Source of the DNA: Halopiger goleimassiliensis
GTDB taxonomy: Archaea; Halobacteriota; Halobacteria; Halobacteriales; Natrialbaceae
NCBI RefSeq assembly: GCF_000455345.1
Contig: NZ_HG315690.1
Coordinates: 2,369,360 to 2,433,359 of the forward strand
Length of the DNA stretch: 64,000 nt
Direction of reading: 5' to 3'
Part shown: positions 482 through 62,192 of the stretch, in pieces
Layout: each line of letters opens with the position of its first letter
How positions within the stretch are numbered: the first letter of the stretch is position 1
Notes under the pieces: generated by a model
Database searches by the model: none
Told to the model about the DNA's origin: nothing
What the model saw: only the letters and a program-made list of their open reading frames with translations
Made by a program: the position numbers and the translations under genes

Positions 482-1292
482 CAGTGCTCGAGTTCGAACC
501 CGCACTCGTGGCGGCGATGTGTCGCCTGTCTTGTTCAATCCCTGGTGTGGATTTATCGATGGTGCCACGATAGCAGCGGAACGGATGTCAACGTCTGGAT
601 CGGGCTATCGACGACTGGATCGAGAACGCGATGAAAGCCCCCGGCCATCTCGAGTCGGGGGGCTCGCTGCGCGCCTCGGTCTTCGACCTGCGGTGCTTGC
701 ATCGCCCGCCTTCCTCGAGATGGCCGGCCCCTTTCAGTCCCGCCCAGACCCTCGTCCTCCCCAGCCGACTTCTGCTCACGGGTGCGCAGCACCCGTTCGC
801 ATGGTTCGCGGAACCGAAGGTTCCGCGCTAACGCTCACGCTGTTCGCTCGTCCCTCGCGAGATAGCGAGACGACCTCGCATCTGCTCACGGCTCACTCCG
901 TTCGCCGTTCGCGTTCCGAGGTGCTCCCGTTGGTCGCACCTCGCTTTGCTCGGCCGTCTCGCCAGCGCGCCACTCGGCCGGGAGCGCGGCTCCGCGCCTG
1001 TCACGCGGAGCCGTGCGACCCGGGGAAGGGCAGGCTCCTCCCTGGTGGACTGAAAGGGCGAGCCGCTGTGGCGTAACGTGTAGTCGCCTCAGCGACCCCT
1101 ATCCGCGCTTGCGCGGATATGTCGCTGAGCGACCGCCACAGCGGCGAGGGCTTTCGAGGGGTCCGACGTTCGAGTGCTCGCCGCACTCACGAAAACCAAA
1201 TCGCCAACTCGCTCCCGAAGTGATCGATTCACACCCGAGCTGTACCGACGAGTCACCGTTCCTTTTGCTCGCGGAGCGCCAAACGGGAACCG
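482..1292. repeat. Gene-poor spacer made of clustered short hairpins
   Basis: This 810-base gap holds no gene I can support. From about 780 to 1020 it is a chain of short inverted repeats: GGGTGC-gca-GCACCC near 780, CGCGGAACC-gaa-GGTTCCGCG near 808-828, GAGGTGC-tcccgttggtc-GCACCTC near 918-943, and CGGCTCCGCG/CGCGGAGCCG near 988-1014. Loops such as tcactccgttcg and tcgctttgctc recur. Similar hairpins occur at 9113-9205, in the kae1-bud32 linker and after aspS. An open frame at 519-1076 on the plus strand has no recognisable domain and runs through these hairpins, so it is not called. Confidence 0.6.
1062..1145. other. 84-base near-perfect long hairpin
   Basis: GCCGCTGTGGCG (1062-1073) pairs with CGCCACAGCGGC (1134-1145). 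Inside it, GTCG (1083-1086) pairs with CGAC (1130-1133), CTCAGCGAC (1088-1096) with GTCGCTGAG (1121-1129) and TATCCGCGC (1100-1108) with GCGCGGATA (1111-1119), around a TT tip. Only a 9-base left bulge and small internal loops break the pairing. It could be a structured RNA, a processing site or the remnant of an inverted-repeat element. No promoter is obvious, so the strand is undecided. Confidence 0.65.
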
Positions 1293-7305: not shown

Positions 7306-9024
7306 TTAGGCGTCGTCGCCCGCGCCGTCGTCCTCGACGTACCGACCCCGCCCCTCGACGTCCTCGAGCCGCTCTAACACGCGTTCGTCGCCGACCTCGC
7401 GGTAGCCCTCGAGCACTGCCTCGCGCAGCGGTTCGGGGTCGTCGGCGGTGCCGACGAGGCTCTGGTCGAAGACGTGGACGTCCATCGCGTAGTCCTCGAC
7501 GTGGTCGGTGTGGTAGCCGAGGCCGAAGTCGATGAGGTAGGTACGGCCCTCGCCGACCCGCACGTTCCGCGTCGTCGGATCTCCGTGCACGAAGCCAGCG
7601 TCGTGCAACCGCGCGAGGTGCCGTCCCACGTCCCGAACCCGCTCGACCGCCAGGGACTCGCGGAGGTCCCGGTCGCCGACGTACTCGAGTTCCAGTCGCG
7701 CCTCCCGGGGATCGACGTCCGAAAGTACTGGCGTCGGCACGCCCTCGCGCCTGGCGAGGCTCGTGAGCCGGGCCTCGAGCGTCGTCCGCTCGCGCCGCAG
7801 GCGCTCGTCGAGTTGCGGGTGGCGATAGGTCTTCGACTCGCGGCGTTTCGTCACGCGGCCGGCGTCGGACTCGAGGTCGACCAGCGCCTCAGCGCCCTGG
7901 ACCTGCTGCTTGCCCTCGGCCGCGCCGCGGCCGGCTGCTAACTCGGGTTCGTCGGCATGCTCGCGGTTCCGGTCGTCACCGCTCGCATTCTCGAGGTCCT
8001 CGCTTCGCTCGGACCTCGCACGCCACGTCACGGGCACCTGATCCGGGCGGAAATTGGGATCGACCTTCGATTTCTCGAGCGCGAGCGTATCGCCGGCGTC
8101 GTACATCTTCGCGCCGAGGACGGCGATCATCCCCGCGTTGTCCCGCAGGAATCGCGGTTCGGGCGCGTGGAACTCGGCCCCGCGCTGGTCGCACATCTCC
8201 TCGAGCATCTCGCGCAGGCGGGCGTTCTGTCCGACGCCGCCGCCGAGGACGAGTTCGTCGCTGCCGGTCAGCGAGAGCGCGCGCTCGGCGACTTCGGTCA
8301 GCATGCCGAAGATGTTCTCCTGCAGCGAATAGCAGATATCTTCCACGGGGACGCCGTCGTCGTAGCGCTGCTTAGCGGCGCTCATAATCCCCGAGAAGGA
8401 GAAGTCCATCCCCTTGACGACGTAGGGGAGGTCCACGTACTCGCCGTCCTCGGCGGCCGCCTCGACCTTCGGCCCGCCGGGGTGGGACCAGCCGACGTGG
8501 CGCGTGAACTTGTCGATAGCATTGCCAACGCCGGTATCCATCGTCTCGCCGAGCACGCGGTACCGGCCGTTCCGGTAGGCAAGCAGGTGGGCGTTCGCGC
8601 CGCTGGCATTGAGACACACGGGGGAGTCGAAGTCGGCGGTGTGGCGGCCGATCTCGAGGTGGGCCACCATGTGGTTGACGCCCACGAGGGGCACCTCGAG
8701 CGACTGAGAGAGCGCGCGGGCGGCCGTTCCGACGATCCGCAGGCACGGGCCGAGACCGGGACCGCGCGAGAAGGCGACGGCATCGACGGGCGGTTCGTCC
8801 GCAGGGCCGTCGTGTGTTTCGCGGGCGCGCTCGAGCGCCGTCTCGACGACTTGAGGGATCGCCTCGTGCATGTGCTCGGCCGCCTCGCGGGGGTGAATGC
8901 CGCCGCTGTCGGGCTGGTAGGCGTCGCTCTCGATGAACACGTCGTCGGTCGCGGAATCGAACACCGCCGCGCTGGCCGCCCAGGCGGTGCCCTCGATGCC
9001 GAGAATGCGGGTGTCAGAACTCAC
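7306..9024 (-). CDS. kae1-bud32: Kae1-Bud32 fusion (tRNA t6A synthesis protein and its kinase)
   Basis: 572 residues. Kae1 (about 1-325) makes the t6A modification at position 37 of ANN-decoding tRNAs; its metal ligands appear in VNHMVAHLEIG (His118, His122), and GTGVGNAIDKF-like and VLGGGVGQN motifs follow. Bud32 (about 395-572) is the atypical kinase/ATPase of the KEOPS complex: GFVHGDPTTRNV near 478 is the catalytic loop and LIDFGLG near 498 the DFG motif. The 65-residue linker is low-complexity and its DNA contains a hairpin (7993-8017) like those in nearby spacers. It lies downstream of rps24e-rps27ae in the same direction, a common archaeal order. Confidence 0.95.
   Translation of the reverse strand: MSSDTRILGIEGTAWAASAAVFDSATDDVFIESDAYQPDSGGIHPREAAEHMHEAIPQVVETALERARETHDGPADEPPVDAVAFSRGPGLGPCLRIVGTAARALSQSLEVPLVGVNHMVAHLEIGRHTADFDSPVCLNASGANAHLLAYRNGRYRVLGETMDTGVGNAIDKFTRHVGWSHPGGPKVEAAAEDGEYVDLPYVVKGMDFSFSGIMSAAKQRYDDGVPVEDICYSLQENIFGMLTEVAERALSLTGSDELVLGGGVGQNARLREMLEEMCDQRGAEFHAPEPRFLRDNAGMIAVLGAKMYDAGDTLALEKSKVDPNFRPDQVPVTWRARSERSEDLENASGDDRNREHADEPELAAGRGAAEGKQQVQGAEALVDLESDAGRVTKRRESKTYRHPQLDERLRRERTTLEARLTSLARREGVPTPVLSDVDPREARLELEYVGDRDLRESLAVERVRDVGRHLARLHDAGFVHGDPTTRNVRVGEGRTYLIDFGLGYHTDHVEDYAMDVHVFDQSLVGTADDPEPLREAVLEGYREVGDERVLERLEDVEGRGRYVEDDGAGDDA
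7993..8017. repeat. Hairpin GAGGTCC-loop-GGACCTC inside the kae1-bud32 linker
   Basis: GAGGTCC (7993-7999), loop TCGCTTCGCTC (8000-8010), GGACCTC (8011-8017). The loop nearly equals that of the spacer hairpin at 9113-9141 (TCGCTGCGCTC), which suggests the same element type within a coding region. Confidence 0.6.
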
Positions 9025-9112
9025 GGGTTGGAATCCGATCGCGATACGGCGGTGAACGAACGACCGCGGCGGTTACGCGCTCGCGGTTCACGTCGTTCAC
9101 CGTTCGCGTTCT

Positions 9113-9205
9113 CGAGGGATCTCGCTGCGCTCGATCCCTCGCAGGCTCACGGGCGTTTCACGCCCGTTCGCTTGTTCGATGCCCCTCGCTTCGCTCGGCG
9201 CATCG
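9113..9205. repeat. Three successive hairpins upstream of kae1-bud32
   Basis: CGAGGGATC-TCGCTGCGCTC-GATCCCTCG (9113-9141), ACGGGCG-tttca-CGCCCGT (9149-9167) and CGATGC...GCATCG (9177-9205) lie between rps27ae and kae1-bud32 on the same transcript direction. They may slow or stop transcription or mark RNA processing. Confidence 0.6.
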
Positions 9206-9340
9206 CTACTCCCACTCGGTGTAGCCGCACTTCCCGCAGTGTTTGCGGTCGCCGTGGTCGGCGAGGAAGGAGTCGCCACACCGGGGGCACTGCTCGCGGT
9301 CGGTGCTGCCGTCGTCGTCGTAGAGTTCGTAGCGCGCCAT
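9206..9340 (-). CDS. rps27ae: 30S ribosomal protein S27ae
   Basis: 44 residues, [11 protein letters not shown]... with a C4 zinc ribbon: CPRCG near residue 18 and CGKCG near residue 35. This is the archaeal S27ae (S31e) protein without the eukaryotic ubiquitin fusion. Its ATG (ending at 9340) directly abuts the stop codon of rps24e (9341-9343), so the two are surely co-transcribed and probably translationally coupled. The C terminus, GYTEWE, is typical. Confidence 0.93.
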
Positions 9341-9673
9341 CTATGCTTCCTCCGCTTCGGCTTCGGCTTCGGCTTCGGCCTCGGCCTCTTCGTCGACGCC
9401 GATCTTGTTGCGCTCGAGCATGTGATCCTGCTCGACGTCGCGGGCGTCGTCGGCGCTCTCGTAGACCTTCGCTTCGCCGACGGTCTTTCGCATCCCGAAC
9501 TTGGTGTCGAGTTTCCGGACGACGACCTCGTCGGCGTCCTTGTTGAGTTTCGCCGCGAGGCTGTCCCGAACCTGCAGGCGCTCGGGCGTGGCGTCCTCGT
9601 GGGTCAGTTCGAAGGTGACGTCGGTCCGATGCAACATGGGGTTCTCCGCTTCGGAGACGATGTCGATGTCCAT
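9341..9673 (-). CDS. rps24e: 30S ribosomal protein S24e
   Basis: 110 residues. The body MDIDIVSEAENPMLHRTDV, then VRKLDTKFGMRKTVGEAKVY, is the S24e family pattern, and ERNKIG closes the conserved part. The C-terminal tail is a run of Glu-Ala dipeptides (about 16 residues), an acidic extension seen in halophile ribosomal proteins. It is the first gene of the rps24e-rps27ae-kae1 group; an A/T-rich box (ctaaaagg, 9711-9718) lies about 40 bases upstream. Confidence 0.95.
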   Translation of the reverse strand: MDIDIVSEAENPMLHRTDVTFELTHEDATPERLQVRDSLAAKLNKDADEVVVRKLDTKFGMRKTVGEAKVYESADDARDVEQDHMLERNKIGVDEEAEAEAEAEAEAEEA

Positions 9674-9826
9674 GATATCACTCAGTTACCCTACTATCCC
9701 CCTGTCGCGACTAAAAGGATTTCGAAGCACCCGACCGGTACCGGCCGCCGGGCGGCCTGCACCGAGTCCAGGGCGAGGCACCGCACGGACGACTGCTTCG
9801 CTATTCGATCCGCGACTCGGGATGGA

Positions 9827-9835
9827 AGAATTTAC
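9827..9835 (+). promoter_or_regulatory. TATA-like box before the first PQQ-propeller gene
   Basis: GAATTTACG is centred about 30 bases before the ATG at 9863; leaderless spacing. Confidence 0.45.
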
Positions 9836-9862
9836 GCTTCCGTGACGAGTTGCTCCGAACCG

Positions 9863-11092
9863 ATGCCCTCCAGACGACGGGTACTCGCCGGCGGTGGGGT
9901 CGCCTTCGGGGTCGGATTCGGTACCACTCGTTCGTTAGATGGGCCGATCTCGCTATCGGAAGCCAACGGGTCGGAGTGGCCGATGGCTCGCTACGACGCC
10001 GCCGGGACCGGTGGCAACCCAGCGGCCTCGGGCCCGAAAGACGGGGTGCAGGTCAGGTGGGAAACGGCACCGGAGACGGCCGTCTCGGGACCGGCACCGC
10101 CGGTCCTGATCGGCGAGACGCTGTTCGCCGTCGGTCGGGAGGGGCTGGTCGCACTCGAGCGGGACACGGGTCGCCTCCGATTCGAACGTCTCGGCCACTC
10201 CTATCTCTCGGCACCCGCGCGGGTGTCGACCACTACGTACCGATCCGATACGCTGGCCGTCACGGGAATCGACGGGGTCCACGGACTGAGCGCCGACGGC
10301 GGCTACGCAGCGGCGGGGTACAGCGTCGGCCTCGAGCGGTGGTACGCGCCGGGCCGAGAACCACCGATGAAGCGGTACGCGAGTCCGGCGGGACCACCCC
10401 CCGTCGCCACCGAGGGATCGGTGTACGCGGTCCTTCCCGGGTCCGATCGAATCATCGCGCTCGACGGCAATAGCGGCCGGGTCCGCTGGGAGCAGGACGT
10501 CGAGACGTCGGTCGCAACGCTGGCGTCTCGACCTGCCGTTCGCAACGGCACCGTCTTCGTCTGCGGCTGGGAGTCGGTCCTCGCGTTCGACGCCGAGACC
10601 GGCCAGCACCGCTGGACCGGAATGCCGGGAACCGACGGCACGGGCCGGCATCGCGACCTCCTCGCGCCGACCGCGACCGATGAGGGGATCGTCGTCCCGA
10701 GTCGGTCGGACGTCGCACTGCTCGATCCGGCCGACGGCAGCCTCGAGTGGGAGTACCGCCACGACGGGAACGCGACCGATGGCAGCGCCGCCGTCGCCGA
10801 CGGAACGGTATTCGTCTCCGACGGCGACGACGCGCTCCACGCGATCGACCTCGAGACGGGGACGAAGGAGTGGACCGCCGAGTACCGACACGAGGTCCAC
10901 CCGGTGGTCGCCGACGGCGTCGTCTACCTCACGTACGCGTGGCACCCCGAACTGGTCGCACTCGACGCCGAGACGGGCGAGCGACGCTTTACGTACGAGG
11001 GCCTCGAGTGGCCCTCACAGCCCGTCGTCGGCGACGGCGTCCTCTACGTCGTCGGCCACGAACGCGTCGTCGCGCTCGAGGAGGGGGAGTGA
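9863..11092 (+). CDS. Tat-exported PQQ-like beta-propeller protein 1
   Basis: 409 residues. The start MPSRRRVLAGGGVAFGVGFG is a twin-arginine signal peptide, chosen over an upstream open frame for that reason. The mature part has repeated PQQ-like propeller blades, recognisable by motifs such as GLVALERDTGRLRFE, RIIALDGNSGRVRWE, VLAFDAETGQHRWT and ALHAIDLETGTKEWT. Such proteins are cell-surface binding or scaffold proteins, or quinoprotein-like; no catalytic quinone ligands can be named. A membrane protein gene follows after 2 bases. There is no lipobox Cys, unlike the two later propellers. Confidence 0.8.
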   Translation: MPSRRRVLAGGGVAFGVGFGTTRSLDGPISLSEANGSEWPMARYDAAGTGGNPAASGPKDGVQVRWETAPETAVSGPAPPVLIGETLFAVGREGLVALERDTGRLRFERLGHSYLSAPARVSTTTYRSDTLAVTGIDGVHGLSADGGYAAAGYSVGLERWYAPGREPPMKRYASPAGPPPVATEGSVYAVLPGSDRIIALDGNSGRVRWEQDVETSVATLASRPAVRNGTVFVCGWESVLAFDAETGQHRWTGMPGTDGTGRHRDLLAPTATDEGIVVPSRSDVALLDPADGSLEWEYRHDGNATDGSAAVADGTVFVSDGDDALHAIDLETGTKEWTAEYRHEVHPVVADGVVYLTYAWHPELVALDAETGERRFTYEGLEWPSQPVVGDGVLYVVGHERVVALEEGE

Positions 11093-44393: not shown

Positions 44394-44552
44394 GTGGCGC
44401 GCGCTGTCGAGCGGCCGACCGAAAGGGAGGCCGCTCGACCGACACCGTGCGAGGGATGAGCGACCAACGGGAGCGAATCGGTTGGGGAGGGCGTGGCTAC
44501 TCCTCGTGTCCACGATAGCAGGACGCTTCGTCTCGACAGCCTCCGTTCGAAC
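44394..44552. repeat. Dispersed structured repeat, copy 1
   Basis: Homologous to 62027-62192. It has an 11-bp perfect stem GTCGAGCGGCC/GGCCGCTCGAC around a 12-base loop, then the conserved stretch gtgcgagggatgagcga...aatcggttggggagggcgtggc...gtgtccacgatagcaggacgcttcgt. Copy 2 keeps the pairing with different bases. The 13-mer GTCCACGATAGCA occurs at 44508-44520 and again at 44571-44583. It lies between convergent genes; the rest of the gap 44258-44590 holds nothing else I can name. Confidence 0.7.
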
Positions 44553-44590
44553 GGGCAATTCAGTCCTCAAGTCCACGATAGCATCGAATG

Positions 44591-62026: not shown

Positions 62027-62192
62027 GTGGCGCGCGCTGTCGGCCAGCCGAGCGACGGCGAGGCTGGCCGACAAAATCGTGCGAGGGATGAACGAGCGAC
62101 CGACGGGAGCGAGTGAATCGGCTGGGGAGGGCGTGGCCACCCCCCGTGTCCACGATAGCAGGACGCTTCGTTTCGTCATCCTCCGTTCGAAC
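62027..62192. repeat. Dispersed structured repeat, copy 2
   Basis: Homologous to 44394-44552. The 11-bp stem is GTCGGCCAGCC/GGCTGGCCGAC around a 12-base loop; three positions differ from copy 1 and each is compensated on the other arm. The following conserved part gtgcgagggatgaacgagcgac...aatcggctggggagggcgtggcc...gtgtccacgatagcaggacgcttcgt is nearly unchanged. Between convergent genes tyrS and the hydrolase. The rest of the gap 61912-62279 holds nothing else I can name. Confidence 0.7.

Follow-up and report, generated by a model that had tools for sequence, protein, structure and literature searches.

The repeat first noticed as two copies in this stretch of DNA is most aptly described as a mobile repeat whose fold is under selection. 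On balance, it probably represents a family, spread across the haloarchaea, of non-autonomous, MITE-like mobile repeats with a selected core fold, moved by a transposase acting in trans, and this family is apparently so far undescribed. The core is about 130 nt long and is organised in the order P1, P2, P3 and then a G-rich motif. The original prediction had set a structured family against a simple mobile repeat lacking any conserved structure; the latter description held in part, as the element does look mobile (patchy copy number, presence or absence at one site, inverted ends and one duplication), but its structure is conserved.

The window, that is, the whole 64-kb stretch of DNA that was analysed, contains the predicted copies at 44394-44552 and 62027-62192, with about 160 bases in common. 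Copy 1 (core and 3' tail, 44394..44531, + strand) is matched by covariance model R1 at 44396-44526 with 140.6 bits, and copy 2 (core and tail, 62027..62171, + strand) at 62029-62166 with 144.9 bits. As predicted, an 11-bp stem differs between them at three positions and all three pairs are compensated (GTCGAGCGGCC/GGCCGCTCGAC against GTCGGCCAGCC/GGCTGGCCGAC), the 12-nt loop has the same length in both, and the downstream blocks said to be nearly invariant, GGGGAGGGCGTGGC and the 24-mer GTCCACGATAGCAGGACGCTTCGT, are identical in the two copies; the chance expectation for matches of this 24-mer is 0. In copy 1 (all features on the + strand), the P1 helix, CGCGCG/CGTGCG, is formed by a 5' arm at 44398..44403 and a 3' arm at 44446..44451, identified by covariation; 98.8% of cells are paired in this helix, and UA and AU replacements are seen in relatives. 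The P2 hairpin (44406..44439) has the 11-bp stem (arms 44406-44416 / 44429-44439), a GA/GA tandem, 2 bp and a GAAA loop, and its counterpart in copy 2, carrying the three compensated differences, lies at 62037..62073 (+). P3 (44455..44479), GAT-GA-GC-GA-CC-aac-GG-GA-GC-GA-ATC, consists of 2-bp helices with GA/GA tandem spacers. It is followed by the G-rich motif CGGTTGGGGAGGGCGTGG (44479..44496), which has near-invariant Gs and possibly forms a pseudoknot or G-quadruplex, and by the subfamily tail GTCCACGATAGCAGGACGCTTCGT (44508..44531), the first 13 bases of which are repeated at 44571-44583. Copy 3 (742..974, − strand), with an enlarged P2 and P3 containing nested GA-spaced hairpins, gives a weak model match at 788-906; it lacks the GTCCACG tail and belongs to another subfamily. 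Its 3' inverted arm GGACTGAAAGGG is at 729..740 (−) and its 5' inverted arm at 1047..1058 (+), where GGACTGAAAGGG on the + strand corresponds to CCCTTTCAGTCC on the element strand; the region 729-1058 (−) is thus enclosed by 12-bp inverted arms, CCCTTTCAGTCC/GGACTGAAAGGG. A copy elsewhere, C2:829914 (L095), resembles copy 3 and is apparently of the same second subfamily.

The proposal that the structure was selected, and did not reflect mere sequence similarity, was borne out by covariation across 42 copies, an excess of G.U pairs and the symmetry of P3, and we regard selection on the fold as virtually certain. The 42 copies were aligned with MAFFT without reference to structure (alignment A3), and 38 proposed pairs were scored. 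In this alignment, 92.3% of cells were paired, 22 of the 38 pairs had changed on both sides (14.5 in shuffles), and 156 cells were compensated, versus 45 in shuffles, with none of 500 shuffles as high. Sliding the partners by 1-3 columns, as a control, brought pairing down to 27-44%. The signal is carried mostly by P3 and by P2, in which nine of 10 stem pairs are altered on both sides; variation in P1 is mainly one-sided, yet this helix has CG pairs replaced by UA and GU pairs turned into AU. In a model-fitted alignment of 127 copies (A4), G.U outnumbered A.C by 220 to 37, a ratio to be taken as an upper estimate given that fitting favours G.U somewhat; as G.U is far above A.C, it is therefore the element strand that folds and not its complement. 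Nearest-neighbour folding of copy 1 gave z = -0.97 for DNA and z = -2.3 for RNA. Further pairings were rejected: a pseudoknot (GGGGAG/CTCCCC plus CGTGG/CCACG) that was plausible by eye displayed covariation not above that of shuffles, its Gs being near-invariant and their partners variable, and a tail hairpin, GTCC/GGAC, has a partner arm that varies (GGAC, GAAC, GAGC) uncompensated.

The hairpins obey a single grammar of short helices separated by GA/GA tandems, which are nearly invariant in P3. Under this rule, 63 of 78 distinct P3 sequences are symmetric down to a loop of at most 6 nt, versus 6 in 100,000 (6e-5) when the inner sequences are shuffled. The window contains six GA-spaced hairpins (0.75 in shuffles), and a scan of the window with AG, CT or AC spacers returned none. 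In 413 kb of sequence from the same genome, selected around element copies, 73 GA-spaced hairpins were found, 71 of them outside predicted genes, in DNA that is 80% coding. GNA triloops accounted for 37 of 47 loops in the 413-kb scan, 29 of 47 in the distinct P3 set and 18 of 48 P3 triloops in the model-aligned set, these counts being raised by the shared descent of the modules; the 413-kb scan yielded three GNRA loops and no UNCG loop, and position 3 of GNNA loops is not biased towards purines. In DNA, C-GNA-G loops and sheared GA tandems have exceptional stability. A paper cited in PMC10527192 terms d(GCGAAGC) extraordinarily thermostable. This stability of GNA loops and GA tandems in DNA makes us lean, without deciding the matter, slightly towards the view that it is single-stranded DNA that folds and not RNA.

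The shortest core measures 114 nt and the longest 468 nt. In about 60% of copies, nested hairpin modules add to the size; the extra hairpins lie in the loop of P2, in the stretch separating P1 from P3, within P3 or in the G-rich loop. Copies that otherwise differ may share a module at one and the same site, which suggests that they have recombined. At one orthologous locus (W), P2 is wholly different in two species and paired in both. In L165, compared with L158, another nested-hairpin cassette lies between the same flanks where the sister species has the element, and parts of the 3' tail recur downstream in head-to-tail repeats of about 30-60 nt at C1:797922, C1:2816228, C1:2846363, C2:361821 and L100. 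Within the window, GA-spaced hairpin modules stand alone, without the element core, between two genes at 9080-9200 (−). A further module, followed by a second hairpin, is in frame at 7991-8018 (−) in ORF 7306-9024 (peptide RARSERSEDLENASGDDRNREHA); the 572-aa product, named by eye, is a putative Kae1-Bud32 fusion with the module in its linker. It is conceivable, if improbable, that the GA-spaced hairpin is itself the mobile unit, a self-similar module nesting in other loops, standing alone between genes and once lying in frame within a gene, and that it spreads by an undescribed single-stranded DNA mechanism involving neither Y1 transposase nor reverse transcriptase.

A mobile, MITE-like origin of the element is likely. 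At one orthologous intergenic site in 29 species, the element is present, absent or reduced to a remnant. An end motif, GTGTCRTAGAATCGTTC, is found in sense at 5' ends and inverted at 3' ends, although it is degenerate or missing in most copies. At up to three mismatches it has 25 matches in the own genome, 10 of which lie at element ends (about 0.1 expected by length), and all 10 are oriented as inverted ends would be; at up to two mismatches, all four matches are at element ends, and C1:97304 supplies two of these, one at either end. As the motif was derived from element flanks, this enrichment is partly built in; neither the rule of orientation nor the direct repeat is affected by that choice. 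The copy C1:97304 has terminal inverted repeats matching at 14 of 16 positions and a perfect 11-bp direct repeat, GTCCCCACTCG, immediately outside both ends. Degenerate inverted ends and a perfect 11-bp duplication together suggest a MITE-like element. Duplications of 10-11 bp would match IS4-like transposases, such as that of ISH8. A joint scan of 147 copies for inverted ends and direct repeats gave no convincing case besides C1:97304, copy-by-copy alignment of flank against flank revealed no general inverted-end signal, which was seen only at the family level and in one copy, and at up to two mismatches the own genome contained no match of GTGTCRTAGAATCGTTC independent of the element and no partner IS. 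The case for mobility is weakened by there being only one clean target duplication, most copies without clear ends and no autonomous partner found.

The search of the genome and of other haloarchaea that the original prediction called for revealed about 45 copies on the two large contigs of the own genome (3.9 Mb), 44 of them with a recognisable 5' core, and many haloarchaeal carriers. Model R1 detected the element in 126 of the 292 haloarchaeal genomes, which represent 42 of the 77 genera. Among the carriers known by name are Natrinema, Natronococcus, Natronorubrum, Haloterrigena, Halogranum, Halococcus and Haladaptatus. A 19-base core motif, counted at one mismatch with control matches almost nil, has 0-138 copies per genome, and numbers are patchy within genera (four congeneric species have 2, 0, 0 and 47). 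A stricter two-part pattern had no match in 204 genomes from other families of the phylum outside haloarchaea. The Rfam 15 covariance models matched no family to the element, and the repeat was not described anywhere in the literature covered by our search, which extended to neither subscription papers nor preprints. A link to viruses or phages was dropped, no element being found in viral contigs (exact scan) or phage records.

All own-genome copies except one tail-only fragment lie outside genes (as called by a home-made gene caller), and two annotated plasmid copies are likewise intergenic. Among 47 copies, 20 are between convergent, 22 between tandem and five between divergent genes; as a baseline, 22% of the intergenic length in the window is convergent, 48% tandem and 30% divergent. 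Neighbouring copies less than 400 bp apart are tail-to-tail in nine of nine cases in named genomes, and in eight cases, versus one head-to-head, among the pairs listed for G284. A strand bias of 33:12 over both large contigs of the own genome was discarded as a general trait, other genomes being about balanced. In three of five orthologous pairs, core identity is 96-99% and that of the adjoining 80 bp mostly 57-86%; the other two have core identities of 89-91% and 71%. Constraint is thus higher than expected for decaying mobile DNA, which, like the folding values for copy 1, counts against the preferred MITE-like reading. In L092, a CRISPR array of about 23 repeats (9328-10966) lies about 2.5 kb from an element copy.

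Several of these features are shared with a structured RNA family acting as RNA (a 3'-end element, an mRNA stabiliser or a bidirectional roadblock between convergent genes) and spread by recombination, a reading that we consider possible but rather doubtful. It would account for the covariation with tolerance of G.U, the preference for convergent over divergent genes, the nearly constant tail-to-tail arrangement of adjacent copies and a core better conserved than the neighbouring intergenic DNA in most orthologous pairs. However, copies between tandem genes are in the same orientation as the genes in 11 cases and in the opposite one in 11, and a 3'-UTR element bound to gene direction was rejected on this count; no TATA/BRE-like promoter motif was seen in the leader by eye; the loops favoured in RNA are scarce, with GNRA and UNCG rare and GNNA lacking a purine bias at position 3; and the element is missing from whole species that have close relatives with dozens of copies.

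Movement as single-stranded DNA by a Y1 (HUH) transposase of the IS200/IS605 type, which would make the element a relative of REP/BIME or PATE sequences, is very improbable, despite strand-specific palindromes, intergenic positions, location between convergent genes and opposite-orientation pairs, as in REPs (PMC3733652), and the existence of haloarchaeal PATEs of such a kind (PMC3119063). PF01797 (Y1 transposase, E <= 0.01) is absent from the own genome and from 13 of the 14 other genomes with at least 20 copies, and the remaining one of these 15 has a broken fragment only, so that none of the 15 high-copy genomes looked at closely has an intact gene for this mover; Y1 transposases are present in other carriers, with no positive association with copy number, and Y1 transposition is at odds with inverted ends and a target duplication. 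A reverse transcriptase (group II intron or other retroelement) was rejected as the mover, RVT_1 being found in none of 40 genomes, own genome included, with control genomes positive. A plain dispersed repeat, with compensatory change arising by chance or by gene conversion without selection, can practically be dismissed: copies do recombine, as their mosaic modules indicate, but the shuffles and sliding control, the symmetry of P3 and the replacement of a whole stem at one locus with pairing retained all speak against it.

For the preferred reading, a MITE-like repeat with a selected fold, the mechanism would be as follows. A trans-acting transposase recognising the element ends would move the element, or would once have moved it; the core would be retained because the element strand must fold when single-stranded, slightly more probably as DNA, at replication or transposition, than as RNA; and homologous recombination among copies would exchange hairpin modules, generating mosaics. 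This is a widespread haloarchaeal repeat family in which structure-preserving evolution is very clear for a dispersed repeat. Testable questions follow about its mover, about whether DNA or RNA is the nucleic acid that folds, and about the way in which copies acquire nested hairpin modules. The family is also relevant to annotation, because copies occupy open frames and are possibly miscalled as small proteins.

Like MITEs and other small mobile repeats of haloarchaea (PMC3119063), the element is short, non-coding, multi-copy and transposase-free, with inverted ends and, in one copy, an apparent target duplication; unlike MITEs, it has no partner IS bearing its ends in its own genome (at up to two mismatches), and a selected, modular core fold is not described for the small haloarchaeal repeats in PMC3119063. 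With REP/BIME sequences (PMC3733652) it shares an intergenic location, chiefly between genes that are convergent or in tandem, the grouping of copies in opposite-orientation pairs, and imperfect palindromes with G.T pairs, but it measures 130-470 nt rather than 20-40, its hairpins end without an invariant GTAG/CGTC tag, and the Y1 transposase (RAYT) is lacking in most high-copy carriers examined closely. The PATEs of Haloquadratum are likewise haloarchaeal, palindrome-bearing and transposase-free; they are related to IS605 ends, have no inverted ends and cause no target duplications (PMC3119063), whereas the present element has inverted ends and a genome without Y1, a distinction drawn from the description of PATEs. 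The bcr1 repeat of Bacillus cereus (PMC6542083) is similarly a short mobile repeat of one lineage, with tens to 130 copies, and differs, by its description, in a mobility tied to TTTAT motifs and in its restriction to one species group (PMC6542083).
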